Assembly: GCF_000377345.1 (NCBI RefSeq)
Contig: NZ_KB898038.1
Coordinates: forward strand, 186,001 to 250,000
Length of the DNA stretch: 64,000 nucleotides
DNA from: Thioalkalivibrio sp. ALJ16
GTDB taxonomy: Bacteria; Pseudomonadota; Gammaproteobacteria; Ectothiorhodospirales; Ectothiorhodospiraceae
Reading direction: 5' to 3'
Positions 11,079-54,474 of the stretch are shown one piece after another. The notes beneath the pieces are model-generated. The model had not been told where the DNA came from, made no database searches, and saw nothing but the letters and a program-made list of their open reading frames with translations. Made by a program: the position numbers and the translations under genes. Every line of letters begins with the position of its first letter. The stretch's first letter is position 1.

Positions 11079-12197
11079 GTGGCGTTGTCCGCAGCCCCCG
11101 CTCCCGCGACCGGCACACTCCGCGCCGGTGTCTGGCTGCTGCTGACCCTGCTGGCCAGCCTGGCGCTGCTGTGGCTCGCCAGCCATTACCCGCCGCACAG
11201 CTGGCAGCCCGAACCGCCCCTGACCCTGCAGCTGGGCGAACAGCGCTACCAGCTCGACCGCGAACGCCTCAGCACTCTCGAACGCTACACCCTGGAGTGG
11301 CTGCAGGCCGGTGACCGCGCGGCACAGGAACACTGGCAGGCGCAGGTGGATGCGGAACTCGAGAGCCGCTTTGCGGCCCTGCACGCGCGGGTCCCCGCGG
11401 TGGCGGAGGCGCACTTCTCCCTGCGCGCGGAATATGCCCGCCTGTGGCTGCGCGGCACGCAGTGGCTGAGCGAGCCCGATCCGGATGCCGAACCCGATCC
11501 TCAGGCCCGCATGCTGCGCGAGCATCTGCTGCCCGAGGCACTGTGGGAATCCCCGCTGCAGGAGCTGGCCACCCGCGTGGAATGGGGACTGGACGAGCAG
11601 CAGCGTCAGGTCCGGGATCAGTGGCGCCTCGAGCTGGCCGCCCACCTGACGGATGCCCGCATCCCGAACCCGCCCCCCGCAGCGGCGGCGACCACGACCC
11701 GGGAGATCGACCTCGGGCACCGCCTGCATGCGGCGCTGGACATAGACATGGAACGCTTCGACCAGCGCACCAGCCTGGCCGCGACGGCCGCCGCCGGCAC
11801 CGGACTCGCGACCCCGCTGATTGCCCGCGCGCTGCAGGCCCGGCTGGCGGCGCGCGCCACGCAGGCCGGCGTGGCCCGCAGTCTGGGCCGCGCGGGACGC
11901 GCCGGGGCCCTGGGCGCCAGCCTGTGTACCTGGAGCGGACCGTTCTCGCTGGGCTGCGGGGTCGCCGCCGCCGGGGTTGCCATCGTGGGGACCGACTGGC
12001 TGCTACTGCGCCTGGACGCGGCACGCCATCGCGACGACCTCGAACAGGCCCTGCACGAGGCCCTGGACGCACTGGAGGCCGAGACCCGCGAGGCACTACA
12101 CCAGGCCATCGCCGCGCGCGTGGAGGCCCGCCACGCGGCCAGCCGCGCCAGCCTGGAACGCACCTTCCAGCCCTGGACCTCGAACCCGGAGCGCTGA
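11079..12197 (+). CDS. Unknown membrane protein with central Ala/Gly-rich hydrophobic hairpin
   Basis: 372 aa from a GTG at 11079. One N-terminal TM helix (residues 16-36), then an extracytoplasmic-type domain of about 170 residues rich in Trp, Glu and Leu helices (YQLDRERLSTLERYTLEWL). Residues 225-310 form an Ala/Gly-rich region with two or three hydrophobic stretches (ATAAAGTGLATPLIARAL, then SLGCGVAAAGVAIVGTDWL) that could insert into a membrane. An amphipathic, probably coiled-coil helix (residues 313-360) closes the protein. I recognise no family. It probably forms an operon with the membrane protein at 10200. Codon use resembles its neighbours, so no sign of recent transfer. Confidence 0.72.
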   Translation: MALSAAPAPATGTLRAGVWLLLTLLASLALLWLASHYPPHSWQPEPPLTLQLGEQRYQLDRERLSTLERYTLEWLQAGDRAAQEHWQAQVDAELESRFAALHARVPAVAEAHFSLRAEYARLWLRGTQWLSEPDPDAEPDPQARMLREHLLPEALWESPLQELATRVEWGLDEQQRQVRDQWRLELAAHLTDARIPNPPPAAAATTTREIDLGHRLHAALDIDMERFDQRTSLAATAAAGTGLATPLIARALQARLAARATQAGVARSLGRAGRAGALGASLCTWSGPFSLGCGVAAAGVAIVGTDWLLLRLDAARHRDDLEQALHEALDALEAETREALHQAIAARVEARHAASRASLERTFQPWTSNPER

Positions 12198-12262
12198 GCG
12201 CAACGCCCCGCATCGACACCCCGAGGCACGTCCACCACGCCCCCCCGGCCGAAGCCCCCGCT

Positions 12263-12303
12263 CGTCATCCCGGCCGCAGCGCAGCGAAGAGCCGGGATCT
12301 CCA
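12263..12303. repeat. Dispersed REP-like hairpin element, copy 1
   Basis: A palindromic unit with CATCCCGGC and GCCGGGATCTCC arms around a GCAGCGCAGCGAAGA centre. A nearly identical unit lies at 60482-60522. Both occupy short non-coding gaps. The shape and placement fit a REP-type dispersed repeat. It sits in the 255-base gap before ispG, which otherwise holds the ispG promoter and no gene I can support. Confidence 0.75.
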
Positions 12304-12452
12304 CCGCCAGCTCCACCCCGACGCCGGCCCCAACGCCCGGGACACCCGCTCACCAGGGCACGGACCAACCCCGGCACGAAAGCGGCGTCTCGGCAGTCGC
12401 GCCGGGCTGCGTTACACTCCGCGCACCGTTTTCCCGCCCCGCGTAGCTCAAC

Positions 12453-13679
<1,227 letters not shown>

Positions 13680-41010: not shown

Positions 41011-41481
41011 TCAGATGAACAGGCAGATGTCGGATTCGCCCGCGAACTCGAAGAACGCGGCCGCCCCGGCGTACTCCACGCCGTCGATGAATTCGCTGGT
41101 GTCCATGTCGAACAGGTCCACCGTCATCTGGCAGGCGATCATGCGCACCTCGGCCTCCTGGCACAGTTCGCGCAGGTCGCCCAGATCGGACACCCCCTTG
41201 GCCGCCATCTTCTTCTTCATCATTACGGTCATCATCTTCTGCATGCCCGGCAGGGCCTGCAGCAGGACCGGCATCGGCATCGGCATCGGCATGCCCGGGT
41301 TGCCCAGCGAGGTCACCTGCAGGTCCAGCTTCTTGCGCAGCAGCTGCAGACCGTAGAACGTGAAGAATACTTCGCAGTCATAACCCAGCGCGGCCGCCGT
41401 CGAGGCCAGAATGAACGGAGGATATCCCCAGTCCAGGCTGCCCTTGGTGGCGATGATGGCCATCTTCTTCTGATCACTCAT
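41011..41481 (-). CDS. dsrE2: DsrE2-like DsrE/DsrF-family sulfur carrier protein
   Basis: 156 aa, ATG at 41481 after GGAGGAGAG. The fold is DsrE/F-like with an N-terminal KKMAIIATKGSLDWGYPPFILASTAA and a C-terminal GVEYAGAAAFFEFA. A Met-rich, possibly membrane-touching central segment (GMPMPMPMPVLLQALPGMQKMMTVMMKKKMA) is typical of the DsrE2 type. Cys residues are at about 113 and 122 (LCQEAEVRMIACQM), the expected persulfide positions. DsrE2 works with rhodanese and TusA in cytoplasmic sulfur transfer during sulfur oxidation in purple and colourless sulfur bacteria; tusA and rhodanese are not adjacent here. Last gene of the minus-strand cluster. Confidence 0.9.
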   Translation of the reverse strand: MSDQKKMAIIATKGSLDWGYPPFILASTAAALGYDCEVFFTFYGLQLLRKKLDLQVTSLGNPGMPMPMPMPVLLQALPGMQKMMTVMMKKKMAAKGVSDLGDLRELCQEAEVRMIACQMTVDLFDMDTSEFIDGVEYAGAAAFFEFAGESDICLFI

Positions 41482-41579
41482 TTGCTCTCTCCTCCAGTGG
41501 TAACAGGAATCGGACCCGCCAGAGCCCCCTCCGCGCGGTCCGTCCCCAGTTGGTTAACAAGGTCGTGCAGCCGGTCCAT
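41478..41579 (-). CDS. Small coupled ORF (33 aa) upstream of dsrE2
   Basis: ATG at 41579 lies 3 bases after the stop of the 47-aa membrane peptide gene, and its TGA overlaps the dsrE2 ATG (ATGA). The peptide (MDRLHDLVNQLGTDRAEG...) is soluble and begins like a short helix. The tight spacing on both sides suggests translational coupling through the whole block. It may serve only to couple ribosomes onto dsrE2. I recognise no family. Confidence 0.45.
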   Translation of the reverse strand: MDRLHDLVNQLGTDRAEGALAGPIPVTTGGESK

Positions 41580-41582
41580 ACC

Positions 41583-41726
41583 CTAGCCCGATGCCTGACG
41601 CCCCCTGCGCCAGTCGCGGATCAGTGCACATCCGGCACAAATACCCAGTGCCGCCATGCTGGCCCAGACCGAAATCGGGACCAGAATCATGGCCAGCGCA
41701 AACAAAAGCCACGCCAGTATGGTCAT
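41583..41726 (-). CDS. 47-aa single-span membrane peptide
   Basis: The ATG at 41726 follows AGGAGGAG with 4-5 base spacing, an excellent SD. The product is a hydrophobic helix (TILAWLLFALAMILVPISVW, then ASMAALGICAGCA) with a basic tail (LIRDWRRGRQASG), so probably Cys-containing and inserted N-out/C-in by the positive-inside rule. It lies between the dynamin-like GTPase and dsrE2 on the same strand. Too short for usual gene-calling cut-offs. Two Cys (CAGC) form a CxxC motif at the end of the hydrophobic stretch. No family recognised. Confidence 0.7.
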   Translation of the reverse strand: MTILAWLLFALAMILVPISVWASMAALGICAGCALIRDWRRGRQASG

Positions 41727-41822
41727 GGTTCTCCTCCTGCACAACGTCTGCGGCCGGAAACCGCACCCGGTTGTGGCGTTGCTGGTTGCTGCGAGCCGCT
41801 GCGGGAGGAGGTCTGCGACCTA

Positions 41823-43397
41823 CTACCCCTGGCGCTTCTCCGGCGCCTCCGGCTCGGCGTAGTCACGGGGCGGCTCCATGCCCGGTGTCGTCGGTGCCGC
41901 GGTCGGGGTCTCCGACTGCGGCGGGTTGTAGGTGTCCGTGGCCGAGGCGCGGCCGCCCTGGCGCGAGACCGGACTTGCGTCCACGAACTGGTTGTTGAGG
42001 CGCTGGATGTAGGCCTCGGCGCGGTCACGCAGCTGGTGCAGACGGCCGATCATGCGCCGCCCCATGCCCAGCGGGGCACGCCCCATCATCGGCCGCCACG
42101 GGCGCGTGTTCTTCACGAAGGCGGCACGCCAGTTGCCGGCGGCGGTCTCGGCAGGCAGGGTCCGGGCGATGCGCCGTGCGATCCAGCGCCGGTTGAAGAA
42201 GTGGATACCCCCGAGCACGATCGCCAGCACCGCAAGCCCGAAACCGGTCAGCAGCGGTCGTTCGCCCATGGCCTGCCAGACACTGCCGTCCGCCCAGGGC
42301 GCGATGCCTCCGGCCGACTGGTAGCCCACCAGCCCCAGGATTACCGCGACCAGCGCGAACATCCCGGCATCGAACTGCACCACCCGCCGCCGCCACTTTT
42401 CCAGCGCCTTCTGCAGCGCCGGCAGGGCATCCATCTCGATCGACTCGGCGATGGCCTGCAGCGAACCGAGGATGCGGTAGGAACGCGAGGAGCTGATCTC
42501 CTGAATCTTGGCGTGGATCTCCTCGCGATCGCGGCGGGACTTTTCCTCGTAGCGCTCGCGCACCTGCGGATCACCGATCTCCACCGCGGCGCTCTCGTTG
42601 TACAGGCAGTAGAAGCGGCCGGTCGCGTTGCCCTGACGCACCACGGCACGCTGCCAGGCGGAGACGACCTCTTCCAGGTTGTCCTCGCGCCAGGTGGTGT
42701 CGATCTGGTTGAGTATAAAGACCAGCTTGGTGAAGTCGTTGCGTTCGGCGACACGGTTGACGAGGTGTTCCAGGGTGTCGCGCATCGCGCCCGGCTCCGG
42801 GTGGCGGGCATCGAAGAACACCAGCACCAGGTCGGAGAGGTCGATGATGTGATCAGTCAGCTGCAGGATGGTCGCGCGCTGCTCGTCGGCGTCGAATCCC
42901 GGCGAGTCGATGATGATGCGTCCGCGCAGGCGCTCGGAATGCGCGGTCTTCATCGCCAGGAAGTGATCCACCGTGCGCCCGCCGCCATCGGTCAGCCGCT
43001 CGATCTCGTCGGACACGCGGTAGAACGGGAAGCGCGGATCGCCGTCCAGCGCCAGCCCCGGCAGCTCCTGCACGCGCTCGCTGCCGCCATAGCTGATCAC
43101 GGTGAACTTGTCGTCCACCGCCTGCGATCCGCTGCGCTGCACGGTCACGCCCACGTACTCGTTGATGAAGGTGGACTTGCCGGCCGAGAAGGTCCCCAGC
43201 GTGGCGATCATCGGCCACCACGAAATGGTGAAGGCGTAGGAATCCTCGGTGGGGTCCAGCAGGCCCGCGGCATACCCGACCCGGTCCAGGTCGCGGAAGG
43301 GGTCCACCACGCCCTTGAGGACCGGATTCTCTTCGGCTAGACGGTCGCTCAGCAGCTTGAGCTGCTTGCGTACCCGGGGACCAGGTCGATTGAACAT
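41823..43397 (-). CDS. Dynamin-like / EHD-type GTPase with two C-terminal TM helices
   Basis: 524 aa, GGAG before the ATG at 43397. GTPase domain about 55-300: P-loop GTFSAGKSTFINE (G1, about residue 68), DDKFTVISYGG (G2 area), IIIDSPGFDA (G3) and FILNQIDTT (G4). The layout, with a helical stretch before the P-loop (DPFRDLDRVGYAAGLLDP), resembles bacterial dynamin-like and eukaryotic EHD proteins that bend membranes. Two TM segments at about 345-365 and 385-405, then a basic region and a Pro/Ala/Thr-rich tail. Expected to be an inner-membrane GTPase. It sits within the sulfur-globule cluster, 27 bases downstream of the 173-aa membrane protein. Confidence 0.88.
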   Translation of the reverse strand: MFNRPGPRVRKQLKLLSDRLAEENPVLKGVVDPFRDLDRVGYAAGLLDPTEDSYAFTISWWPMIATLGTFSAGKSTFINEYVGVTVQRSGSQAVDDKFTVISYGGSERVQELPGLALDGDPRFPFYRVSDEIERLTDGGGRTVDHFLAMKTAHSERLRGRIIIDSPGFDADEQRATILQLTDHIIDLSDLVLVFFDARHPEPGAMRDTLEHLVNRVAERNDFTKLVFILNQIDTTWREDNLEEVVSAWQRAVVRQGNATGRFYCLYNESAAVEIGDPQVRERYEEKSRRDREEIHAKIQEISSSRSYRILGSLQAIAESIEMDALPALQKALEKWRRRVVQFDAGMFALVAVILGLVGYQSAGGIAPWADGSVWQAMGERPLLTGFGLAVLAIVLGGIHFFNRRWIARRIARTLPAETAAGNWRAAFVKNTRPWRPMMGRAPLGMGRRMIGRLHQLRDRAEAYIQRLNNQFVDASPVSRQGGRASATDTYNPPQSETPTAAPTTPGMEPPRDYAEPEAPEKRQG

Positions 43398-43424
43398 GCA
43401 GACTCCGTCAGACAGGTCGCGCGA

Positions 43425-43946
43425 TCAGCGCGGGTAGTACGGACCCGGCGAACCCCGGACCGGACCGCCCTGATCGGTAAATGGGTTGAACATGTTCATC
43501 ATACCCATTGGGCCGCCCACATTGCGATTCAGGCTCCACATGTCCTGCTGCATACCGATAATGGAACCCGCCATTACGCTGGTATCGCGCGTCATCGAGC
43601 TGATATTGGCATCCATCGAACGGGTATTGGAGGCGATCACCCCGACTTCGTCGTTCATCTTGCGCATCGTGGCATTGATCTCCGTCATCTGGTGATCCAT
43701 GGAACTCATATGCGCGGCGATGGTGGACATGTCGCGGTCCACGACCCGGGTCATCTGCGAGATCTCCTCGGTCAGCTGACTGACATCCCGGGTCAGGCTG
43801 GTAATCAGCCAGAAGCCGTAGATCGCCAGCACCACGAAGGCCACCAGTGCGGCATAGACGATCAGTTCCAGTCGCCGCGAGCGGGCATCGGCCTCGTCGG
43901 CCTCCTTGCGCACGGCGCTGAACTCGTTGCTGTTCGGGTCACTCAT
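43425..43946 (-). CDS. Membrane-anchored coiled-coil-like protein
   Basis: 173 aa. Short acidic N-terminus, one TM helix (about 27-50; LIVYAALVAFVVLAIYGFWLI), then about 90 residues of heptad-like sequence rich in Met, Ser, Thr and Asp (VSQLTEEISQMTRVVDRDMS..MSSMDHQMTEINATMRKM) that should form a long parallel coiled coil in the periplasm or cytoplasm. It ends in a Gly/Pro/Met-rich segment (GGPMGMMNMFNPF...GPYYPR) that recalls the low-complexity secreted proteins encoded upstream. No family recognised. Same strand and tight spacing with the DUF302 and GTPase genes. Confidence 0.8.
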   Translation of the reverse strand: MSDPNSNEFSAVRKEADEADARSRRLELIVYAALVAFVVLAIYGFWLITSLTRDVSQLTEEISQMTRVVDRDMSTIAAHMSSMDHQMTEINATMRKMNDEVGVIASNTRSMDANISSMTRDTSVMAGSIIGMQQDMWSLNRNVGGPMGMMNMFNPFTDQGGPVRGSPGPYYPR

Positions 43947-43985
43947 CGGACGCCCCCGTAAAATGGTGAAAACGCAGCCGCCCCA

Positions 43986-44573
43986 TCAGAACGCACCCAC
44001 GGCGGCGCGGTCGATGATCGCCTCCAGCGACTCCTTCACGAACATCGCCTGCTCGCGCAGCTCCTCGGGCAGCGGGCGCCCCCCGTGGATCATCGGGTCC
44101 AGGTCCAGTGTCATCAGCCACAGGTTGCCGTTCTCATCCTCCTGCAGCACGATCCGGCAGGGCAGATATGCGGCCATGGCCGGGCTGTGCCGCACCATCT
44201 GTGCGGCGATGGTGACATCGCAGAACATGTAGATCTTCAGAAACGGGAAATCCTCACCGGTGACGCTGCGCACCTCCTCGCCCATCGGCAGCTCACCGAC
44301 ATTGCGAATGTTCAGCTCGTTGGCGACCAGGCGCAGGACGTCCTCCACCTCCTCGACGCCCAGCCCGGCCTCCACCTGGCGCTTGTACACCATGGCCTCC
44401 GCGGCATCGCCGGTCTCCAGCACCGTGCGCGCCATCTGCGAATAGACCTTGGGCGCCTGGGAATCCAGCGAGCGGGCCGGCCCCAGGTAGGGCTCGAGGG
44501 CAAAGATGGCGTAGCCGACCCCCACCAGCGCCAGTAGACCGATCACAGCCAGTGTATTGCGTATGAAGCGCAT
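43986..44573 (-). CDS. DUF302 domain membrane protein
   Basis: 195 aa with AGGAGAGG before the ATG at 44573. One N-terminal TM helix (about 7-26). The soluble domain ends with a DUF302-like core: KIYMFCDVTIAAQMVRHSP, AAYLPCRIVLQEDENGNLWLMTLDLDPMIHGG. DUF302 proteins often occur in sulfur- and redox-related loci of lithotrophs; function unknown. Two Cys (FCD and LPCR) could be redox or persulfide sites. Within the cluster it lies between the ParA-like ATPase and the helical membrane protein. Confidence 0.82.
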   Translation of the reverse strand: MRFIRNTLAVIGLLALVGVGYAIFALEPYLGPARSLDSQAPKVYSQMARTVLETGDAAEAMVYKRQVEAGLGVEEVEDVLRLVANELNIRNVGELPMGEEVRSVTGEDFPFLKIYMFCDVTIAAQMVRHSPAMAAYLPCRIVLQEDENGNLWLMTLDLDPMIHGGRPLPEELREQAMFVKESLEAIIDRAAVGAF

Positions 44574-44621
44574 GGCCTCTCCTCCTTGTCACCCGCATCC
44601 CGGTCTGCCCGGCGCGCGGCG

Positions 44622-45263
44622 TTATTGTTTTTTGCGCCGGCGCCCGAACACGGCGACCGCGAGCGCATCCAGCTCGGCTGCGGCCTTGCCGCGCGGCTCC
44701 AGCTCGCGCACCGACAGTCCCTCGCTAAACGAGCGGCGGAATGCCATGCGCTGCTTCAGGCGCGGCTTCAGCAGCCGCACACCCTCGATCTGCTGCAGGG
44801 CCTCGTGGGTCTCGTCGGTCTCGCGCACGGCCTGGTGCGTGTCGGCGCGGTTGATGAATGCCAGGATCTCCGGGCGCTCTCGCGCGCCGCGCTGCTCCTG
44901 GATACGCGTCACGAAGCGATAGGTGGACCAGACATCCGCCTGGCTGGGCGGCACCGGGATCAGCACCCGGTCGGCACCCTCCACCGCGGCCATCAACGCC
45001 GCCATGTCCGATGCCCCGACGTCGATCAGGATCTCGTCGTAGTCGCCCGCGCGGGCGCGCGCCGCTTCCAGGTCCGGGGCCGCCTCCAGCATCGGCTCGA
45101 AGCCCTCTTCCTGGCGCACCTCCAGCACGTCACTAAGGGTGCGCTGGGGGTCGAGATCGACGGCCAGGGCGCGGCGGCGACTCTCGAGCAGCCACAGGGC
45201 CAGATTGAAGGCCACGGTGCTCTTGCCCGTACCCCCTTTCAGATTGGCAACGACGGTCTGCAT
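44622..45263 (-). CDS. ParA/MinD-family ATPase
   Basis: 213 aa from the ATG at 45263 (AGGAGAGG SD); the 16 upstream residues of the open frame are rejected. The deviant Walker A KGGTGKST (about residue 10, signature Lys present), AVDLDPQRTLSDVL (Walker A') and EILIDVGASDM (Walker B) mark an active ParA-type dimer-switching ATPase. The C-terminus has the RPRLKQRMAFRRSFSEGLSV pattern of orphan ParAs. No parB, minC or minE lies alongside. Orphan ParAs position cargo such as carboxysomes, chemoreceptor arrays or PHB granules; here the neighbours are sulfur-globule-like proteins, so that cargo or its membrane machinery is a candidate. Confidence 0.9.
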   Translation of the reverse strand: MQTVVANLKGGTGKSTVAFNLALWLLESRRRALAVDLDPQRTLSDVLEVRQEEGFEPMLEAAPDLEAARARAGDYDEILIDVGASDMAALMAAVEGADRVLIPVPPSQADVWSTYRFVTRIQEQRGARERPEILAFINRADTHQAVRETDETHEALQQIEGVRLLKPRLKQRMAFRRSFSEGLSVRELEPRGKAAAELDALAVAVFGRRRKKQ

Positions 45264-45334
45264 AGAGCCTCTCCTGGGAACACTGCGGACTGCCGGCTGC
45301 GTTTCAGCCACCAGTCCGCAACGCTCGAAAACAG

Positions 45335-45357
45335 GGCCTGCCCGAAGCCGGGCAGAC
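45335..45357 (-). terminator. Hairpin between globule-protein gene and parA-like gene
   Basis: On the minus strand CTGCCCG-GCTT-CGGGCAG is followed by GCCCTGTTTTCG. The T-run is offset by about five bases, so it looks like a weak or partial terminator. It could lower expression of the downstream ATPase, DUF302 and GTPase genes relative to the structural globule proteins. Confidence 0.5.
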
Positions 45358-45374
45358 CCAACCGAGGGATGGAC

Positions 45375-45818
45375 TTAGTTGCCCTGACCCTGCTGCTGCG
45401 GCATCTGACCCTGCGGGCCCCAGCCCTGCGGACCGTAACCCGGGCCATAACCGTAGCCGGGACCGTAGCCGTAACCCGGGCCATAACCGTAGCCCGGATG
45501 GCCGTAGCCGTGGCCCCGGCCGTAGCCGTGGCCGTGGCCGTGGCCATAGCCATGACCGCGGCCGCGACCGCTGGCGGAGAAGTCAAAGGCGCCATCGCCC
45601 ATCATGTCGCTCATCATGTCGCCCATGCCCCAGTTACGGCCGGAGCCATACCCCGGGCCACCGAAGAACGGCATGCTGGGACCATAGCCATAGCCGGGAC
45701 CGTACGGCCCGGGGCCGTACCCGTAGCCCGGACCGCCCCACTGGGCGGAGGCCATCATCGGGGCGGCCAGGCCACCCAGGGAAACGGCGAGAACTGCTGC
45801 CTTGACGAACTTGTTCAT
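45375..45818 (-). CDS. Sulfur globule protein-like Gly/Tyr-rich secreted protein
   Basis: 147 aa from the ATG at 45818 (GGAGG SD). Signal peptide ends at MMASA-QW (about residue 26). The mature protein is almost entirely Gly, Tyr, Pro and His in [10 protein letters not shown]-type repeats, interrupted by a short Met/Asp/Phe segment ([22 protein letters not shown]) and a GHGYGHGHG stretch. This is the composition of SgpA/SgpB-type envelope proteins of periplasmic sulfur globules in purple sulfur bacteria. The assignment is by composition and context, as low-complexity sequence limits homology. The same MMxxREGSGDFSFGMSGRG-like core recurs in the 235-aa protein upstream. Confidence 0.78.
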
Positions 45819-45899
45819 GGTGCTACCTCCTGAAGGAGTCATGCCCTCGAATCGATTACGCGCATGCGGGGAGGGCTTCTCGAACGCGCGCTTTACTGG

Positions 45900-46319
45900 T
45901 CAGGGGAACGGAAAACCACCCATGCCCCAGGGGAGGACCGGAATCGGCCCGCCCATGCCCGGGTATCCGGGTCCACCCGGATACCCGTATGGATCACCCC
46001 ACGGCATCCCGCCGGGGGGGTGGAAGGACGGAGTACCGGGACCGCCGTACGGGTAGGCCGGTACCGGCTGTGACCGGTCGTGAACGGCGCCCGATTCGGC
46101 CCGCTGCGACGGGTCGTAATCACGCTCCGGAAAGCGCCCGCGCGGGCGCTCCGGTGCCGGGCGCTGCGTCTCCGGCGTAGCGGAGGCCCAGGGGTTCTGG
46201 CGTTCACTCGCTGCCAGGTCGGCAACCGGCCACAGGCAGACGGCGACCAGCACGATCGCGAGCACCGAAGCGCGCCGCGTCCGTTGGGGTCTCGTTTGCC
46301 CGGACTGCCTGCCCTGCAT
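45900..46319 (-). CDS. Secreted Pro/Gly-rich protein of the globule cluster
   Basis: 139 aa from the ATG at 46319, with GGAGG upstream. A basic N-region and hydrophobic core (ASVLAIVLVAVCLWPVADLAA) make a signal peptide cleaved near residue 36. The mature part is polar then Pro/Gly/Tyr-rich (VPAYPYGGPGTPSFHPPGG, PYGYPGGPGYPGMGG). It resembles its two neighbours in composition and probably belongs to the same structural group, although it is Pro- rather than Gly/Tyr-dominated. No family recognised. Confidence 0.7.
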   Translation of the reverse strand: MQGRQSGQTRPQRTRRASVLAIVLVAVCLWPVADLAASERQNPWASATPETQRPAPERPRGRFPERDYDPSQRAESGAVHDRSQPVPAYPYGGPGTPSFHPPGGMPWGDPYGYPGGPGYPGMGGPIPVLPWGMGGFPFP

Positions 46320-46395
46320 GGCGAACCGCCTCCGTCTCAAATCCACAGCGATGGGCACCAAGGCACCCGTCCATCCGCGATGACTGATCCGTGGA

Positions 46396-47103
46396 TCAGT
46401 AGCCACCGCCCTCTTCCCTGGACTCACGACGCTCACGCATCATTTCCATGCGCCGCTCGCGCTGGCGCTCCATCTCTTCCTCGTAGGCCGCGCGCCCGGC
46501 CTCCATGGCCTTCTGGCGTGCCTCACGCATGGCCTGCATCTCTTCCATGCGTTCCTGGCGCTCGGCGTGCTGCGCCTGGATGCGCTCGCGCATCTCTTCC
46601 GGCATGTCCTCCGGCAGGTTGTCCGGATCAAACTCCGGCATCTGGCCGTAGCCCGGGCGCTGCTGCATGCCGTAGCCCGGCTGCATCATCCCCGGATGGC
46701 CGAAGCCGCCTCGCTGCGGGCCGGGCCCGTAGCCCGGACCATAGCCAAAACCTGGGCCATAACCCGGGCCATAACCCCGATAGCCACGCCCATACCCGTG
46801 GCCATAACCGTCGCCGTGACCGCGGCCGTAGCCCTGGCCGTGGCCACGCCCGGACATGCCGAAGCTGAAGTCACCGGAGCCTTCGCGCTGCTGCATCATC
46901 CCGCCGCCGGGATGCATGCCCATGCCATGGCCGTAGGGGGCGTGACCGTAGGGACCGGGCACCGGACCCTGCTGGCCCATCGCCGGACCCTGGCCGTAGC
47001 CCTGCTGCTCGTCGGCCTGGGCCACACCCAGGGCCAGCACGGATGCCACGGCGGCGCTGGCCAGCGCGGTGCCGATCGTTCGGGTATTGAATCGCTTCTT
47101 CAT
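46396..47103 (-). CDS. Sulfur globule protein-like protein with charged helical C-terminus
   Basis: 235 aa from the ATG at 47103 (AGGAGG SD). Signal peptide ends at GVAQA-DE (about residue 31). Residues 35-150 are Gly/Tyr/His/Met/Pro-rich ([35 protein letters not shown]). Residues about 165-230 change abruptly to a charged single helix or coiled coil (MPEEMRERIQAQHAERQERM...MEMMRERRESREE). The SGDFSFGMSGRGHG core is shared with the 147-aa protein. The modular build, a globule-like domain plus a coiled coil, suggests a linker or scaffold of the globule coat. Starts 31 bases after the RND permease stop. Confidence 0.75.
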   Translation of the reverse strand: MKKRFNTRTIGTALASAAVASVLALGVAQADEQQGYGQGPAMGQQGPVPGPYGHAPYGHGMGMHPGGGMMQQREGSGDFSFGMSGRGHGQGYGRGHGDGYGHGYGRGYRGYGPGYGPGFGYGPGYGPGPQRGGFGHPGMMQPGYGMQQRPGYGQMPEFDPDNLPEDMPEEMRERIQAQHAERQERMEEMQAMREARQKAMEAGRAAYEEEMERQRERRMEMMRERRESREEGGGY

Positions 47104-47134
47104 CGGGAACCTCCTTGAGGTCTTGCTTGCGTGA

Positions 47135-50100
47135 TCACTTGAGTCGAATCCCGCGCCGGGCGCGGCCCTTGCCGGGCGTACCCGACTTGCCACCCCCCTT
47201 GGGAGTGGTGCCGCCCTCCTTGCGGCCGGTCTTGCTACTGGTCGAGGCGGATTTGGTGGTTCCACCGGTCTTCTTGTTGGACGCCGGCGCCGCGCGCTTG
47301 TTCGCCGTGCCACCACCGGATTTGGGGCCGCTGGCGGCCTGGCCGGACGTGCTCGCACGCCCTTTGCTCGGGCTACCCGCCCCGCCAGTGGTCGTCTTGG
47401 CCTTGGTCTGCGTCCTGGCCTGAGTCTTCGTCGTGCCACTGGACGCCTTCTTCGCGGTCTTCGTACCCGCGGCTCCGCTCCCGGCCGCGCCAGTCGCGCG
47501 GCTGGAGCCGCCCTTCGCAGACCGCGATTCCGTGGCGCCGGACGCGGACGTCGCCTTCGCCGACGCCGCGCGGGATGCCCCGCCGGCGCGAGAGGCGGAT
47601 TTCTTCGGGCTCACGGCGGCATCGGTCTTCGCATCCGCGTTGCCGGAGGCCGGCGCCGGGGCCGCCGGCCTCCGGGGCTCGGCGGCGGGCTCTGGCGCTT
47701 CGGGGCGACTCGCCGGCTCGGGCGCCTGCGCAACCGGATCCGAATCCGGGGCACCGGTCGATTGGCGGTCCTGCGACTTGCCAGCGGCCGGGCCGGAGCC
47801 CATACCCGACGGCCCGCCACTCACCGGACCGCTACCGAAGCCCGAGGTGGAGCCACCGCCCGACGGGCCGCCCGGCCCGCCGCCACCGTCACGACGGCGC
47901 TCCAGCAAGGACCGGATCAGGCGCCACAGGGCAAACGCGAGATCGCGCAGGCCCTCGAGGAAGGCCAGGGCCAGGCACTTGAGATAGAGACCGGCGTACT
48001 GCACCGCCAGGGTGACCGGCCCGCCCTCGCGCGGACCGAAGAGGTCGTTGCCCGCAGCGGCGCCGGAGGCCGCGCCCGGAGCCGGGGCCGCCGCGCCGCC
48101 ATGGCCGTTGCCGTTGCCATTGCCGGTTGCGCACACGGCCGTCGCCTCGCCGTTCTCGTTCAAGCTGGTCGGACAGAAGGCGCGGCGCCCGGAGATGCAG
48201 CCCAGCGGGATCACCACCAGGGTCAGCAGGGTGGCGACCACGGTGCCGAACATCAGCGAGATCGCCATGCCCTGGAAGATCGGATCGAACAGAATCACGC
48301 TGGAACCGGCCAGCAGAGCCAGCGCGGTGATGATGATCGGGCGGGTACGCGCTTGGCAGGCCATGATCATGGCATCGCGCACGTCGTGGCCCTCATCCAC
48401 CGCCTGGCGGCCGAAGTCCACCAGCAATATCGAGTTTCTGACGATGATGCCCGCAAGTGCTATGAAGCCGATCATCGAGGTCGCGGTGAACTCGGCATTC
48501 ATCAGCCAGTGGCCGGGGATAATCCCGATCAGGGTGAGCGGGATCGGGGCCATGATGATGCCCGGTAGCACGAAGTTGCCGAACTCCCAGACCACCAGCA
48601 TGTAGATCAGGATCAGGGCGATGGCAAAGGCGATCCCCATGTCACGGAAGGTCTCGTAGGTCACGGTCCATTCGCCGCCCCACTCGAAGGCGGTGGAGCC
48701 GTCGTTCGGCGGTGGACCGAGCCAGTGGGGCTGCACCGTGCTGCCGTCCGGCAGGCGGTAATCCTGCAGCTGTTCCTGAACCTCGAGCATGCCGTACACC
48801 GGGGCTGCCAGGCGCCCGACCACCTCGCCGGTCACGTACTCCACCGGGCGCAGGTTCTTGTGGTAGATCGGCTCGTCCTGCGGGCGCTGCACGAATTCGC
48901 CCAGCTCCATCAGCGGGATCGAACCGCCCTGCGCGGTCGCCACCGGGATCATCTCGAGCTGGCGGATGTCGTTGCGGGTCGCCTCGGGCAGGCGCATCTC
49001 GATCAGGTGCGGCTCGACCAGGGACTGCGCCTTGATGTCGCCCAGGATCTGGCCACCGATGGCGGTCTCCAGCGTGCGGTTCACGGCCTCCACCGTGACC
49101 CCGCGGCGCAGGGCCTTGTCGCGGTCCACCTCGAAGTGCCACACGTGGTGCGGCGCCTGCAGGAAGCTGTCGACATCGGCCACATGCTCGGCCCGGGCGA
49201 ACATGCCCTCGAGATCGCGTGCAACCGCGCGCCGGGTAGCGGCATCCGGGCCATACACCTCGGCCACCACCGACTGCAGCACCGGCGGCCCCGGCGGCAT
49301 CTCGACCACCTGGATGCGCGCCCCGGCGGCGGACGCCATCGGGGTCAGACGCTCACGCGCCTCGGTGGCAATCTCGTGCGAGGTGCGGCTGCGATCACCC
49401 TTGTCCACCAGCTGCACCTGGATATCGCCCTGCCAGGGCTTGTCACGCAGGTAGTAGTGGCGCACCAGGCCATTGAAATTGAACGGTGACGCAGTGCCGA
49501 CATAGGCCTGCAGACCGACCACCTCGTCCATCTCCCGCAGCACCCGGGCCATGTCGTGGCTCAGGGTGGCGGTCTCGGTCAGGGCCGTGCCCTCGGGGAA
49601 GTTCACCACTACCTGGAATTCGGGCTTGTTGTCCAGCGGCAGCATCTTCACGCGGACATCGGTGGTCACGAACAGGCTGACCACCAGGAAGAACACCACG
49701 ATCACGCCGATCAGGAAGGCGTAGCCACGCACGCGGTTGTCGGCCAGCCCCGGGATCGCCTTGCGATAGAAACGGCCCAGCCGCTCGGCCTGGCGGTGTT
49801 CCTTGTCCGTGGCCTTTTCGAGGTACGCCATGCTCGGGCGCAGGCGCTGGGTCAGCCACGGCGTGAACACGAAGGCGGCGACCAGCGAGAACAGCATCGC
49901 CACCGAACCCAGCACCGGGATCGGCTGCATGTACGGGCCCATCATCCCGGAGACGAAGCCCATCGGCAGCAGCGCCGCGATCACGGTGAAGGTGGCGAGG
50001 ATGGTCGGATTGCCGACCTCGCGCACGGCATCCACCGAGGTCTCGGTATCGATCCCGCGCTTCATCAGCCAGCGCCGGTAGATGTTCTCCACCACCACTA

Positions 50101-51406
50101 TGGCGTCGTCGACCAGGATGCCGATGGAGAAGATCAGCGCGAACAGGCTCACGCGGTCAATGGTGTAGCCCAGCACCCAGGCGCTGAATACGGTGAACAG
50201 GATCACCACGGGGATCACGATCAGCACTACCAGCGCGGCGCGGAACCCAAGGAACAGCCCGACCAGGATGGTCACCGCGAAGGTGGCGATGAACAGCTTG
50301 AAGATCAGCTCGTTGACCTTCTCGTTGGCGGTCTTGCCGTAGTCGCGGGAGACGGCGACCTCGACGTTGTCGGGGATCACACTGCCCTTGAGCTGCTCCA
50401 GGCGCTCGAGCACGTGATTGGCGACCGTGACGCCGTTGCTGCCGGGCTTCTTGGCGATGGCCAGGGTTACCGCGGCCGCACCCTCCGGCGCCGCCGCCGG
50501 ATCGACCGCCGCCGGGCCGGAGTAGTGCCGTACGAATCGCTCCAGCTCACCGGGGCCATAAGTCACCTCGGCCACGTCGCTCAGGTAGACCGGCTGGCCG
50601 TCGCTGACCGCCACCAGCAGCTGCTCCAGATCCGCCGCGCCGGTGAAGAAACGCCCGGTATACACCGCGGTGCTCAGCCCGCCACTCTCGATGCGGCCGG
50701 CCGCCCCCTCCACGTTCGCGGCCTGTACCGCACGGGCAATCTGTTCCTGGCTGACACCGAAACTGGCCAGGCGCTCCGGGCGGAGCTGGATGCGCAGGCG
50801 TTCCTCGCGACCGCTGACCACGAAGCTCTGGCTGGTATCGGGGACCTCGTTCAGCTGCTGCTGGGCATCCAGCGCGATCTGGCGCAGCAGGGCATCGTCC
50901 ACCTCGTGCGACCAGAAGGTCAGGTTGACCACCGGCACGTCGTCCGCGCCCTTGGCCTTGACCAGCGGCTCGCTGACGCCGGGCGGCATCAAGTCACGGT
51001 TCGCGAACAGCTTGTCATGCACCTTGACGATCGAGGACTCCATGTCCTCGCCCACGTCGAACTGCACCGTCACCATCGCCTCGCCGCGATGCGAGACGGA
51101 ATAGACGTTGTCCACCCCCGAGAGCTCGCTCATCAGCCGCTCCAGCGGCCGCGCGGCCAGGCTCGCCACCTGCTCCGAAGGCACCCCCGGATACGACACC
51201 ATGATGTCCACCATGGGCACGGAGATCTGCGGGTCCTCCTGGCGCGGCGTGACCATCAGGCCGAGGATGCCGATCGCGATACTCGCGAGCAGCAAAAGGG
51301 GTGACAGCGGCGAATGGATGAACGCCGCCGCCATGCGCCCGGCGATACCGAGATCCCCGTGTTTCTGCCGGAACCCGCTATCGGATTTTTTTTGGTCTTC
51401 CGCCAT
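47135..51406 (-). CDS. RND efflux permease with a long histone-H1-like C-terminal tail
   Basis: 1423 aa; ordinary RND permeases end near residue 1050. Residues 1-1072 are a full transporter: TM1 (PLSPLLLLASIAIGILGLMV), VSYPGVPSEQVA, TM2-6 with IFSIGILVDDAIVVVENIYRR (DD proton relay), and TM7-12 with ALAGIIVRNSILLVDFGRQA and GMAISLMFGTVVATLLTLVVIP. The tail of about 351 residues (DNA 47135-48190) has a Gly/Asn start, one amphipathic helical patch (YLKCLALAFLEGLRDLAFALWRL) and then about 250 residues of Ala, Ser, Gly, Thr, Pro and Lys with KKSASRAGGASRAASAK-like repeats. The tail should be cytoplasmic and strongly basic, like AlgP or histone H1. First permease of the sigma-54-preceded cluster. 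Confidence 0.92.
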   Translation of the reverse strand: MAEDQKKSDSGFRQKHGDLGIAGRMAAAFIHSPLSPLLLLASIAIGILGLMVTPRQEDPQISVPMVDIMVSYPGVPSEQVASLAARPLERLMSELSGVDNVYSVSHRGEAMVTVQFDVGEDMESSIVKVHDKLFANRDLMPPGVSEPLVKAKGADDVPVVNLTFWSHEVDDALLRQIALDAQQQLNEVPDTSQSFVVSGREERLRIQLRPERLASFGVSQEQIARAVQAANVEGAAGRIESGGLSTAVYTGRFFTGAADLEQLLVAVSDGQPVYLSDVAEVTYGPGELERFVRHYSGPAAVDPAAAPEGAAAVTLAIAKKPGSNGVTVANHVLERLEQLKGSVIPDNVEVAVSRDYGKTANEKVNELIFKLFIATFAVTILVGLFLGFRAALVVLIVIPVVILFTVFSAWVLGYTIDRVSLFALIFSIGILVDDAIVVVENIYRRWLMKRGIDTETSVDAVREVGNPTILATFTVIAALLPMGFVSGMMGPYMQPIPVLGSVAMLFSLVAAFVFTPWLTQRLRPSMAYLEKATDKEHRQAERLGRFYRKAIPGLADNRVRGYAFLIGVIVVFFLVVSLFVTTDVRVKMLPLDNKPEFQVVVNFPEGTALTETATLSHDMARVLREMDEVVGLQAYVGTASPFNFNGLVRHYYLRDKPWQGDIQVQLVDKGDRSRTSHEIATEARERLTPMASAAGARIQVVEMPPGPPVLQSVVAEVYGPDAATRRAVARDLEGMFARAEHVADVDSFLQAPHHVWHFEVDRDKALRRGVTVEAVNRTLETAIGGQILGDIKAQSLVEPHLIEMRLPEATRNDIRQLEMIPVATAQGGSIPLMELGEFVQRPQDEPIYHKNLRPVEYVTGEVVGRLAAPVYGMLEVQEQLQDYRLPDGSTVQPHWLGPPPNDGSTAFEWGGEWTVTYETFRDMGIAFAIALILIYMLVVWEFGNFVLPGIIMAPIPLTLIGIIPGHWLMNAEFTATSMIGFIALAGIIVRNSILLVDFGRQAVDEGHDVRDAMIMACQARTRPIIITALALLAGSSVILFDPIFQGMAISLMFGTVVATLLTLVVIPLGCISGRRAFCPTSLNENGEATAVCATGNGNGNGHGGAAAPAPGAASGAAAGNDLFGPREGGPVTLAVQYAGLYLKCLALAFLEGLRDLAFALWRLIRSLLERRRDGGGGPGGPSGGGSTSGFGSGPVSGGPSGMGSGPAAGKSQDRQSTGAPDSDPVAQAPEPASRPEAPEPAAEPRRPAAPAPASGNADAKTDAAVSPKKSASRAGGASRAASAKATSASGATESRSAKGGSSRATGAAGSGAAGTKTAKKASSGTTKTQARTQTKAKTTTGGAGSPSKGRASTSGQAASGPKSGGGTANKRAAPASNKKTGGTTKSASTSSKTGRKEGGTTPKGGGKSGTPGKGRARRGIRLK

Positions 51407-51460
51407 CAGGTCTGAAACATCCCTTGTTGCTTGCGCATCCGCATCCCCTGGCCCACCGGA

Positions 51461-52642
51461 CTACATCCGGTTCCAGGGGTCGGCCTCGAGCGAACGCGGG
51501 CCGGAGGTGTCGCGCCCGACCGGCTGGCCGGAACGCACACCGGCGTCCGGGCGCGCCAGGATCTGCATGCCCGCCTCCAGCCCCGAGGTCACCACCACCT
51601 GGTCACCGCGCATGCCGCCCAGGCGCACCATGCGCACACGCACCGAACCCTCGCCGTCGAGTACCGCCACCCGCGGCAGCGCGCCGCCGGGGATCAGCGC
51701 CGAGCGCGGAATCACCACCCGCTCACCCGCGACCTCGCCCTGCGGCAGATGCACCGCCGCGTGCATTCCCGGCCCCCCGCGCACGCCCTGCGGCAGGTCG
51801 AACTTGACCGTAACCGTGTGGCGCTGCGGGTCGGCCAGCGGGAAGATCTGCGCGACCCGAGCCTCCACCGCGTCGCCGGTATCCAGGCGCACATGCACGT
51901 AATCGTCTTCCTGCAGCCCGGCCACCAGCCGCACCGGCACTTGGGCCTCCACCCGCAGAAACTCGACATGCCCGAAGCTCACCAGCGGCTGCCCCGGCTG
52001 CACCGTGTCGCCCGCCTCCACGTGCTTGTGCATCACCAGGCCATCGAAGGGGGCCTCCGAGCGGGTGTCGCGGATCGCCGCATCCAGCTCGGTGACCCGG
52101 GCACGGGCCTGCTCCCAGCGCGCCTGTGCCTGATCCACGCCGATGTAACGCGAGTAGAGGTCGGTGCGCCGGTCCAGCGCGGGATCGCCGAAGCCCATGA
52201 ACTGGCCCATCGGCTGGGTAAACATCTGGTCGAACATCGACGGCACGCCCATGCCCGGCATCTGGCCCAGGCTGCGCGACTGTGGCGCGATCATCTCGCG
52301 GCCGTACTGCATCTGGGCCTCGCGGATCGCGGACTCGGCGGTACGCATCTCGGCCTGCGCCGCCAGGCGCTGCGCGCGCAGGCGGTCATCACTGATGGCC
52401 ACCAGCACCGCACCCTGCTCGAAGCGGTCCCCCTCGGCCCCGGCCACCTCGATCACACGCCCGGCCGATTGCGCGGTCAGGGTCACCTCGCGGAACGGGA
52501 TCACGGTCCCGCTGACGACTCGGGTCGCGGCCCGGTCGGGCTCGACGGTCACCACCTGGCTGGAGGCATGGGCGGCCAGCGGGCCGGCCAGCATCAGGGC
52601 CACCGCCCCGCGCAGAAAGATCCGGAAAAATCGAGCAGGCAT
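51461..52642 (-). CDS. RND efflux periplasmic adaptor (membrane fusion protein)
   Basis: 393 aa from the ATG at 52642; SD GAGGTGA 9 bases before. Signal peptide about 1-27 (RIFLRGAVALMLAGPLAAHA). The first lipoyl half (LTAQSAGRVIEVAGAEGDRFEQGAVL), a short hairpin with an unusual Met/Gly/Phe insert (LGQMPGMGVPSMFDQMFTQPMGQFMGFG, about residues 120-150), the second lipoyl half (SEAPFDGLVMHKHVEAGDTVQPGQ) and the beta-barrel (VPVRLVAGLQEDDYV) follow. It pairs with the permease 54 bases downstream. First gene after the sigma-54-type promoter; 5' leader about 200 bases. The Met-rich insert could contact metal or sulfur species; that is inference. Confidence 0.92.
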   Translation of the reverse strand: MPARFFRIFLRGAVALMLAGPLAAHASSQVVTVEPDRAATRVVSGTVIPFREVTLTAQSAGRVIEVAGAEGDRFEQGAVLVAISDDRLRAQRLAAQAEMRTAESAIREAQMQYGREMIAPQSRSLGQMPGMGVPSMFDQMFTQPMGQFMGFGDPALDRRTDLYSRYIGVDQAQARWEQARARVTELDAAIRDTRSEAPFDGLVMHKHVEAGDTVQPGQPLVSFGHVEFLRVEAQVPVRLVAGLQEDDYVHVRLDTGDAVEARVAQIFPLADPQRHTVTVKFDLPQGVRGGPGMHAAVHLPQGEVAGERVVIPRSALIPGGALPRVAVLDGEGSVRVRMVRLGGMRGDQVVVTSGLEAGMQILARPDAGVRSGQPVGRDTSGPRSLEADPWNRM

Positions 52643-52857
52643 GGTCGTCGTCACCTCGCGCCGAGGACCGCAATGGGAGAAAGGGCCGGGTCGGGCCGCG
52701 TCGCGGCCGACCCGGCACCCGCCTGGAACACCGTCACCACGGGAAGGCCCGCAGCTGCGGGCGCGGCGATCGATCTCGTCCACGCAGTGACGGCGGCATT
52801 GCCATTCGGGCAAGTGTCCATCGTCCTGTATGTAGAAGAACTCATCCCCGGCTACAA

Positions 52858-52873
52858 GCAACGCATATGCCAA
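52858..52873 (-). promoter_or_regulatory. Sigma-54 (-24/-12) promoter driving the RND/globule cluster
   Basis: On the minus strand the site reads TTGGCATATGCGTTGC. GG of TGGC and GC of TTGC are 12 bases apart, exactly as in the sigma-54 consensus (TGGCAC-N5-TTGC), and one position of the -24 box differs (T for C). Transcription would start near 52846, about 200 bases before the adaptor ATG. A gene for a sigma-54 activator begins on the opposite side, and palindromic putative enhancer sites lie at about -94 to -177. Confidence 0.8.
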
Positions 52874-52934
52874 GATAATGGTTTTCTTATAAATCAATCA
52901 GTTGTTAATGATGTACTAATACTACAGAAACGAC

Positions 52935-53029
52935 TGTTGCAACACCCCCGTTTCGCGCTATAACCGATACAGGGACTGGCGAAACGGGCATCGTTCGGGC
53001 GTTGCAACGGATACGCCGTGTTGCAACAC
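52935..53029. promoter_or_regulatory. Three GTTGCAAC palindromes: putative enhancer sites of the sigma-54 activator
   Basis: TGTTGCAACA at 52935-52944, CGTTGCAACG at 53000-53009 and GTGTTGCAACAC at 53018-53029 are perfect palindromes sharing GTTGCAAC. They lie between the activator gene and the -24/-12 promoter, at about -94, -158 and -177 from the predicted start. An additional 8-bp inverted repeat, CGTTTCGC / GCGAAACG, brackets 52949-52986. Enhancer-binding proteins of the NtrC family use such upstream sites. Binding is inferred from position. Confidence 0.75.
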
Positions 53030-53076
53030 CGCATCGCTTCCGCCACCCCGTCCAACAAAAAGAACAAGGAGAGGGG

Positions 53077-54474
53077 ATGACCACAACCGAGCTGGCCGAG
53101 ATCTGTATCCGACACAGTCGAGACCCACACCTCATCAGCGATGCCCGGGGCCGCGTGCTCTTCGCCAACCCGGCCTTCCACCAGACCCTCCAGATCCCGC
53201 CGGGGACCCGCCTCACCCTGGATCAACTGGGACCGCTCAACCTCGAGACCCACCTGAAAGAGGCCGCCATCGCCGCCGGCGAGCCTGCCGACGCCAGCCG
53301 CACCAGCCAACCCCTGCACTTCTCGCTGATGGCCGAACTGGATGACGAGACCCTGCCGTTGGAGGTCATCAGCCAGCCGCTGAGGCTGAACGATGACGCT
53401 CGCGCCCTGCGCCTGATCACCCTGCAGCCCCAGCGCCGCCGTACCACCGCGGTCGAGACCATCCACGAGGACGGCCGCGACGGGCTCGATGACAGCCATT
53501 TCCACTCCTTTGATGCTGAATGCCGCAGTGCACTGCAGTTCGCGCGCCGCATCGCAGCCAGCGATGTGCGGGTGATGCTGCTGGGCGAGTCCGGGACCGG
53601 AAAGACCCGCCTGGCACGCGCCATCCACCGCTCCAGCCGCCGCACCAGCGCCCCGTTCGTGGAGATCAACTGCGCAGCCATCCCCGAGGAGCTGCTGGAA
53701 TCCGAGCTCTTCGGTCATGCCCGCGGAGCCTTCTCCGGCGCGGTCGCCGATCGCATCGGTCGCTTCGAATCGGCCGACGGCGGCACCCTGTTTCTGGACG
53801 AGATCGGCGAGATGAGTCAGCGCCTGCAGGCCAAGCTGCTGCGGGCGGTCCAGGACGGGGCCTTTGAACGCGTCGGGGAAAACGAGACCCGCCAGGTCGA
53901 CGTGCGCATCCTTGCCGCCTCCAACCAGGACCTGCGCGCCCGCGTCGAGGCCGGCGAATTCCGTACCGACCTGTTCTATCGGCTCGCGGTCGCCTCCGTG
54001 GAGATCCCGCCGCTGCGCAGCCGCCCCCAGGACCTCGCGGCGACCCTCGAGACCTACGAGGTCCACAACGGCATCCGCATCGCCCCGCGCCTGAGGCAGC
54101 GACTGCAGGAACACCCGTGGCCGGGCAACTTCCGGGAGCTGGAAAACGTCCTCGAGTGCCTGAGCCTGCACGCCCGCGACGGCCAGGTGGACGACTTCCC
54201 GCTACCGCGTCCGATCCGTATCGACGCCGCCCACGACGCCGGCGTCGACCGCGCAGCCGGGGACACCACGGCGCCGGCGCGCGCCCCGTCCGCGGGCGCC
54301 AACGGGCATGCCGCGAAATCCGGGCCGGAGCTCACCGGCGCCGAACACCCGGAGGCCCGGCGCCTGCGCGAGGCCCTGATCGCCAACGCCGGCAACCGTT
54401 CCCAAACCGCGCGCTCCCTCGGCATGGACCGCAGCACCCTCTGGCGCAAGCTGCATCGCTACCAGCTGGTCTGA
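53077..54474 (+). CDS. Sigma-54-dependent enhancer-binding transcriptional activator
   Basis: 465 aa from the ATG at 53077 (AAGGAGAGG SD). An N-terminal sensory domain of PAS type (about 1-130; [21 protein letters not shown]) precedes the AAA+ domain (about 150-375): Walker A GESGTGKT, the sigma-54 contact loop GAFSGA (usually GAFTGA), Walker [13 protein letters not shown], and [25 protein letters not shown] Fis-type HTH ends the protein ([27 protein letters not shown]). No phospho-acceptor receiver is present, so it is probably a ligand- or redox-sensing activator. Divergent from the RND/globule cluster, whose -24/-12 promoter it most likely activates. Confidence 0.94.

Follow-up and report, generated by a model that had tools for sequence, protein, structure and literature searches.

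In Allochromatium vinosum, the most abundant protein of the sulfur globules is SgpD, a periplasmic protein found on the globules, whose transcript is 28-fold up on sulfide and whose gene adjoins a gene for a hydrophobic/amphiphilic exporter (PMC10386293; the papers cited in this text are represented by excerpts). Partners of ParA ATPases act through flexible, charged ends that include aliphatic residues: ParA is stimulated by a short motif of ParB together with DNA, and McdA is bound by the first 20 residues of McdB (PMC12462528, PMC12204374). Here we compare these systems with an 11-gene cluster of Thioalkalivibrio sp. ALJ16, found in a stretch of 64,000 nucleotides (the window; RefSeq assembly GCF_000377345.1, contig NZ_KB898038.1, positions 186,001 to 250,000). 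The cluster encodes an RND adaptor and permease, three secreted coat-like proteins, a ParA-type ATPase, a DUF302 protein, a helical membrane protein, a dynamin-superfamily GTPase, a small membrane peptide and DsrE2. We narrowly favor the view that it represents, in Thioalkalivibrio, a widespread envelope machine that handles zero-valent sulfur and its protein-coated globules, in which ParA would space the pump by means of the pump tail. The wide conservation, the association with coat proteins and the ParA-linked pump tail are new here.

For the building, placing and sharing-out of sulfur globules in sulfur oxidizers, the excerpted literature names coat proteins only. Among the titles and abstract openings covered, a set that leaves out most subscription journals, no paper connects sulfur globules with ParA, an RND pump or a dynamin-like protein. 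To our knowledge, no positioning system has been described for sulfur globules, and we know of no efflux pump that is a direct cargo of ParA. If the favored view is correct, ParA ATPases would gain a pump as a further cargo, and sulfur storage a membrane-shaping GTPase. The gene set common to many lineages also provides concrete knock-out targets and one specific contact, that between ParA and the pump tail.

Association with sulfur oxidation and coat proteins

We searched 369 Gammaproteobacteria genomes for the GTPase, the ParA-type ATPase (44622..45263, minus strand; cut-off E 1e-45), soxB and the sulfur globule protein (SGP) domain, which gave matches in 90, 65, 152 and 55 genomes, respectively; the statistics of the resulting co-occurrence tables ignore genome relatedness. 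soxB is present in 59 of the 65 genomes with ParA, compared to 93 of the 304 without it. Five of the six genomes with ParA and no soxB match carry DsrE2 over its cut-off and the sixth is 55% complete, while DsrE2 passes in 1 of 14 hand-picked comparison genomes lacking both ParA and soxB. The FccB flavin domain was uninformative as a sulfur marker in these same two groups (4/6 vs. 4/14 over cut-off).

The association is also seen with the coat domain. ParA occurs in 49 of the 55 genomes with an SGP match and in 16 of the 314 without one, and, when counted by family, in 24/26 and 8/152 (the total of 178 families being the highest label seen). Within the soxB-containing genomes alone, the counts are 46 of 52 with SGP and 13 of 100 without, which argues that the module follows coat proteins and not merely sulfur oxidation. 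We consider the link of the module to sulfur well supported. An earlier, sequence-only reading of the window had already pointed to sulfur globules, and this idea is strengthened by the SGP domain, the co-occurrence with soxB and DsrE2, the conserved gene order and, in the excerpted account, the position of A. vinosum sgpD beside an exporter gene. Its further expectation, that the ParA and GTPase genes would both track sulfur oxidizers, is borne out for ParA by the soxB and SGP counts above but not for the GTPase, which is broader (18 of 90 genomes without soxB).

Sgp3 (45375..45818, minus strand) carries the SGP domain (PF17228, 36.8 bits vs. a cut-off of 26.7), and five of seven tested glycine-rich proteins adjoining ParA pass the same cut-off. 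An effect of composition was rejected as the source of these matches, as none of ten shuffles of five such proteins matched. The sequence-only reading had likened three proteins of the cluster to sulfur globule coat proteins; this holds for Sgp3, but neither Sgp1 (46396..47103, minus strand) nor Sgp2 (45900..46436, minus strand) matches SGP or any other family over its cut-off. Sgp1 is a secreted low-complexity, coat-like protein with a signal-like segment at residues 9-28 and a charged helical end, and comparable genes follow the RND gene in other loci. Sgp2 is a secreted Pro/Gly-rich protein, also with comparable genes in other loci, whose start codon is uncertain. Its reading frame overlaps that of Sgp1 if the first start codon counts, and its hydrophobic segment at residues 53-78 suggests a later one.

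The coat-like genes lie immediately after the pump, and a review states at the level of the family that Ectothiorhodospiraceae excrete sulfur (PMC8877833). The pump could on these grounds export the coat-like proteins or a sulfur structure that is extracellular, and the system would then serve globules on the outside and not stored ones. We find this very improbable, since the coat-like proteins have Sec-type signal-like segments and thus can enter the periplasm without a pump. The same review also states, in the excerpted text, that no member of this family has globule proteins.

The pump tail and ParA

The RND permease (47135..51406, minus strand; 1423 residues; ACR_tran 516.8 bits vs. 28) extends beyond its core into a low-complexity C-terminal tail of ~350 residues ending in RRGIRLK. 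In an alignment of orthologs, the tail varies in length and letters and closes with RRGIRLK. RND orthologs, defined by our own cut of >1400 bits in counts that combine two score scales (alignment A3 and a local profile), are found in 59 of the 65 genomes with ParA, compared to 12 of the 93 that have soxB but no ParA. Where the pump end could be scored, 50 of 54 genomes with ParA have the tail motif, compared to 1 of 11 genomes without ParA. The motif was scored as RGI[RKQ][LIA], a pattern widened after variants appeared, and this widening favors the tail reading. Where a genome has several pump copies, a motif-bearing copy was chosen if there was any, and genomes with an incomplete RND end were omitted (G208, G336, G055, G317, G289 and G120; G and L numbers are our handles for genomes and loci).

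In eight genomes without ParA, the tail is short (31-99 residues) and the motif absent (G126, G250, G353, G386, G349, G154, G270 and G368), and two more have a tail without the motif (G186, 100% complete, and G223, 72%). In G126 and G250, the expected ParA position is still surrounded by the other module genes. ParA was searched for again at E 1e-15 in 13 genomes, including eight of the 11 without ParA (G154, G270 and G368 being excluded); scores reached at most 87 bits, compared to at least 206 for the 65 genomes with ParA, and the match in G409 is possibly a truncated ortholog. In a quick tree built from 65 pump cores, which carries a long-branch warning, the state lacking both ParA and motif requires six changes.

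The make-up of RRGIRLK, like that of the ends of known ParA partners, together with its association with ParA, leads us to propose the pump as the ParA cargo. From this we infer a contact of ParA with the pump tail and a role in globule positioning. The idea in the sequence-only reading that a cytoplasmic ParA would act through a membrane partner thereby gains a candidate, as ParA and the tail motif are lost together. It is possible, although we hold this only tentatively, that sulfur globules are positioned organelles, where ParA spaces RND clusters on the nucleoid through their RRGIRLK ends, and the GTPase and a periplasmic scaffold build a globule at each site. As a separate observation, several genomes carry elsewhere a further copy of the RND permease that has almost no tail (L326, L331, L332, L335, L336, L337, L339 and L340).

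The solved structures closest in sequence to the permease core are those of multidrug pumps, and the substrate of the pump may therefore not be sulfur. The best score against the NCBIfam multidrug RND subfamilies misses the cut-off (467.7 vs. 1250 bits). In Azospira suillum, sulfide raises RND proteins, but sulfide oxidation is not slowed by deletion of an operon that contains SQR and RND genes and is strongly expressed on sulfide (PMC5358917). Both observations would fit a sulfur-stress efflux system, in which the pump expels polysulfide, S8 or other toxic lipophiles, ParA and the GTPase only spread the pumps and protect the membrane, and globules are not the cargo. However, the association with the coat domain exceeds what soxB alone gives, and secreted coat-like genes are retained between RND and ParA, which makes this explanation unlikely in our view.

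Conservation of the gene order

Within the genus, the GTPase is found in 28 of 30 genomes, both misses being less than 80% complete, and in 1 of 17 other genomes of the order. The nearest named relatives belong to Thioalkalivibrio, and among the matches listed the GTPase is 95% identical to that of strain ALE31. Twenty GTPase loci were fetched: eleven hold the block on one contig, with DUF302 unmatched in L040 and L041 and Sgp2 unmatched in L042, and four are cut by contig ends. Four more, from one clade, hold only coat-like genes, GTPase, the 47-residue peptide mp47 and DsrE2, and one, from another genus, holds the GTPase alone. Loss of pump and ParA in the clade of four was rejected, as G023, the sole genome of the clade inspected, has a second locus (L192) with pump, coat-like genes, ParA, DUF302 and helical protein. 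The G023 set is split over L192 and L036, where coat-like genes, mp47 and DsrE2 are present at both loci, the GTPase and a TPR gene at one only, and pump and ParA only at the other.

Several relatives have an extra gene between ParA and DUF302, encoding a protein with a single transmembrane (TM) segment and weak TPR matches. In G013, the stretch of this TPR membrane protein (L043 reversed, ~11746-13017) that separates the membrane anchor from the TPR is an extended array of almost identical Pro/Glu/Ala repeats, and the length of the array differs strongly across species.

Beyond the genus, a scan of named genomes for the GTPase kept 80 of 125 confirmed loci, making its findings a minimum. Relatives among the matches listed come from Sedimenticola, Chromatium, Thiorhodospira, Thiomicrorhabdus, Sulfurovum, Solidesulfovibrio, Wenzhouxiangella and others. 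In loci with a nearby ParA, the genes usually run adaptor, RND, low-complexity secreted genes, in some cases D4412 (our label for a periplasmic protein), ParA, TPR, in some cases DUF302, helical protein and GTPase. The GTPase is divergent in most Sedimenticola loci, Chromatium and G162, and parts are absent from some loci. The sequence-only reading had considered these components not usually seen together; instead, most of them co-occur, mostly in the same order, across many Gammaproteobacteria and sulfur oxidizers, and the conserved order rules out a chance mixture of genes. One contig (L103), filed as a Rhodobacteraceae metagenome-assembled genome, has a tail ending in KARRGIRI, three low-complexity genes, ParA, TPR and GTPase, and this module may represent either transfer to Alphaproteobacteria or a binning error.

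The GTPase also stands among ordinary genes, with no ParA nearby, in Sulfurovum, Solidesulfovibrio, Wenzhouxiangella and Thiorhodospira. Copies without the module in Wenzhouxiangella, Sulfurovum-like and Solidesulfovibrio genomes (L070, L100, L111 and L118) are ~42-67% identical. This conservation without the module suggests a role outside sulfur globules, and the GTPase appears to be a broad family that was recruited by the module. The GTPase was rejected as a hallmark of the module, given its presence in 90 of 369 genomes. DsrE2, mp47 and DUF302 vary between lineages outside the genus, and these genes, like the GTPase that is also solitary, are for this reason weaker evidence for one machine.

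The same variation and the solitary GTPases would be expected if shared regulation were all that joins these genes, with separate sulfur-related functions in one operon and a plasmid or an unrelated membrane cluster as the ParA cargo. The nearest solved relative of the ParA, the plasmid protein ParF, and the location of most SGP genes away from ParA point in the same direction. Against this stand the order of the genes, conserved across many families, and the loss of the pump tail motif along with ParA, and we judge that shared regulation alone is quite unlikely to be the explanation.

A proposed machine for sulfur globules

In the machine that we favor, oxidation of reduced sulfur would act on a sigma-54 activator that switches on the operon; the promoter-like site is observed, and the signal is presumed. 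The adaptor and RND permease may then remove hydrophobic sulfur or polysulfane from the inner membrane or periplasm. This is the weakest step, and that the pump moves sulfur is doubtful. The secreted Gly/Tyr/Pro proteins would coat the exported sulfur. Judging from the correlated loss, the RRGIRLK ends of the long pump tails could capture and trigger nucleoid-bound ParA dimers, and the pumps, plus the globules that they feed, would be spaced along the cell and shared at division. The anchored TPR, DUF302 and helical proteins may form a scaffold on the periplasmic side, and the dynamin-like GTPase may shape the inner membrane around the deposit. Finally, DsrE2 would pass mobilized sulfur to cytoplasmic oxidation, which we take to be the role of its family.

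Several observations weigh against this machine. Sixteen genomes with ParA have no SGP match and six with SGP lack this ParA. Of the 49 genomes that have both, only 13 have the SGP gene no more than 3.1 kb from ParA; in two more it is ~11 kb away, and in the rest farther or on another contig. G134 (88% complete) retains the tail motif without ParA, on a contig that ends soon downstream, and four genomes with ParA were scored as motif-less (G102, G199, G343 and G344). G102 is a near copy of the motif-bearing G238 and the match in G343 is interrupted by a stop, and sequence errors may account for these two; for G344, the second copy was the one scored, as a contig end cuts the first, and G199 is left unexplained. 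Among seven independent pairs differing in ParA, the motif goes the same way as ParA in five, the opposite way in none and does not differ in two, which falls just short of significance (median p 0.0625). The GTPase family is solitary in many genomes, and 18 of the 90 genomes that carry it have no soxB. The sgpD gene of A. vinosum forms a transcription unit of its own and is dispensable (PMC10386293). SUP05 cells, with four putative sgp genes, make periplasmic globules although the authors of the excerpted study detected no dynamin in SUP05 genomes (PMC6509183); globules as such therefore probably do not require the GTPase.

Cluster layout and regulatory region

The eleven genes run in one direction on the minus strand, from the adaptor start at 52642 to the DsrE2 end at 41011, in a draft genome of 2.76 Mb. 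The sequence-only reading counted twelve genes where we find eleven, and was right about the single direction and the short gaps, which are 27 to 111 bases. Domain searches matched the families that it gave for the RND adaptor, permease, ParA, DUF302, dynamin-like and DsrE2 proteins. It overlooked the tail of the permease and named no divergent activator, although both are present. A terminator-like hairpin with a T run was spotted by eye at ~40983-40952, and an Rfam scan of the window gave no matches.

The RND adaptor, a membrane fusion protein (51461..52642), matches HlyD_D23 and TIGR01730 (158 bits vs. a cut-off of 94.9); this and the following genes are all on the minus strand. The ParA matches AAA_31 and CbiA and starts at residue 17 of the open reading frame 44622-45311, and residues K9, G10, G11, G13, K14, S15 and T16 of its deviant Walker A motif (KGGxGKST) are invariant in 12 rows. 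The membrane-anchored DUF302 protein (43986..44573; PF03625) has two invariant cysteines, C118 and C139, in six of six rows. Hmp, the helical protein (43425..43946), has a TM-like segment at residues 23-53, and its membrane segment and MN.F.P end are conserved in 14 rows. The helical, TPR and DUF302 proteins have one membrane segment each and probably face the periplasm.

The GTPase (41823..43397) scores 54.4 bits against Dynamin_N (cut-off 27) and has a hydrophobic hairpin of TM-like segments at residues 338-360 and 380-402. Its structural model (mean pLDDT 80.2) has a predicted dynamin-type fold, with a large GTPase domain and a helical stalk. The best Foldseek match is to EHD4 (E 3.6e-11), and within the 50 rows shown the model also matches IniA, BDLP and mitofusins, with modest TM-scores of 0.23-0.53. 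The 47-residue membrane peptide mp47 (41583..41726) is 75-96% identical across 19 genus loci and also present in L073. DsrE2 (41011..41481) scores 290.2 bits against NF047629 (cut-off 210), and the ALJ16 genome has a single further DrsE_2 match, which is weak. The same genome contains two soxB genes (G000:C4:74275-75969 and G000:C12:6522-8261).

Upstream of the adaptor is a sigma-54 (-24/-12) promoter-like site, TGGCATATGCGTTGCT (52857..52872, minus strand), in agreement with the sigma-54-preceded cluster of the sequence-only reading. It is the sole match to TGGCAYN5TTGCW in the 64 kb, where 0.12 would be expected. Three palindromes, TGTTGCAACA / CGTTGCAACG, lie at 52935..53028 and are predicted as likely activator-binding sites from their clustering and recurrence. 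Matches to TGTTGCAAC with at most one mismatch are at chance level over the window as a whole (7 seen vs. 7.24 expected), and six of the seven are the three palindromes within 52935-53028. Beyond them, a divergent sigma-54 activator (53080..54474, plus strand; start codon approximate) matches Sigma54_activat (225.7 bits) and HTH_8 (41.6 bits), and was matched as divergent neighbor in 9 of the 11 genus loci with the whole block. The site and the palindromes recur jointly upstream of the same operon in 6 of these 11 loci, where the site fits 10 of 11 consensus positions. The site was not found in the other five (L042, L043, L044, L047 and L050), three of which have a palindrome. In L073, from a different lineage, a perfect 11/11 site and one palindrome precede the operon.

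Comparison with known systems

As in McdAB and ParABS, a ParA-family ATPase here stands beside the genes of an organelle-like body, and the candidate partner would offer a charged flexible chain end with aliphatic residues, like those of ParB and McdB (PMC12462528, PMC12204374). The difference is that the candidate adaptor would be the C-terminus of an RND pump, rather than the N-terminus of a soluble protein, and that the cargo would lie in the envelope. With SgpA-SgpD of A. vinosum, the locus shares secreted coat proteins, the SGP domain, here in Sgp3, and an exporter gene, next to sgpD there, which we compare with RND by description only. The excerpted account of that system does not describe ParA, GTPase or pump for globule formation. 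The permease core and the adaptor are those of HAE-type RND multidrug pumps, while the long tail with its conserved end and scores far below the NCBIfam multidrug subfamily cut-offs set this pump apart. The GTPase, finally, resembles the dynamin-like proteins IniA and BDLP and the EHD ATPases in its modeled fold, but belongs to a conserved family of its own, which has a hydrophobic hairpin of two helices.

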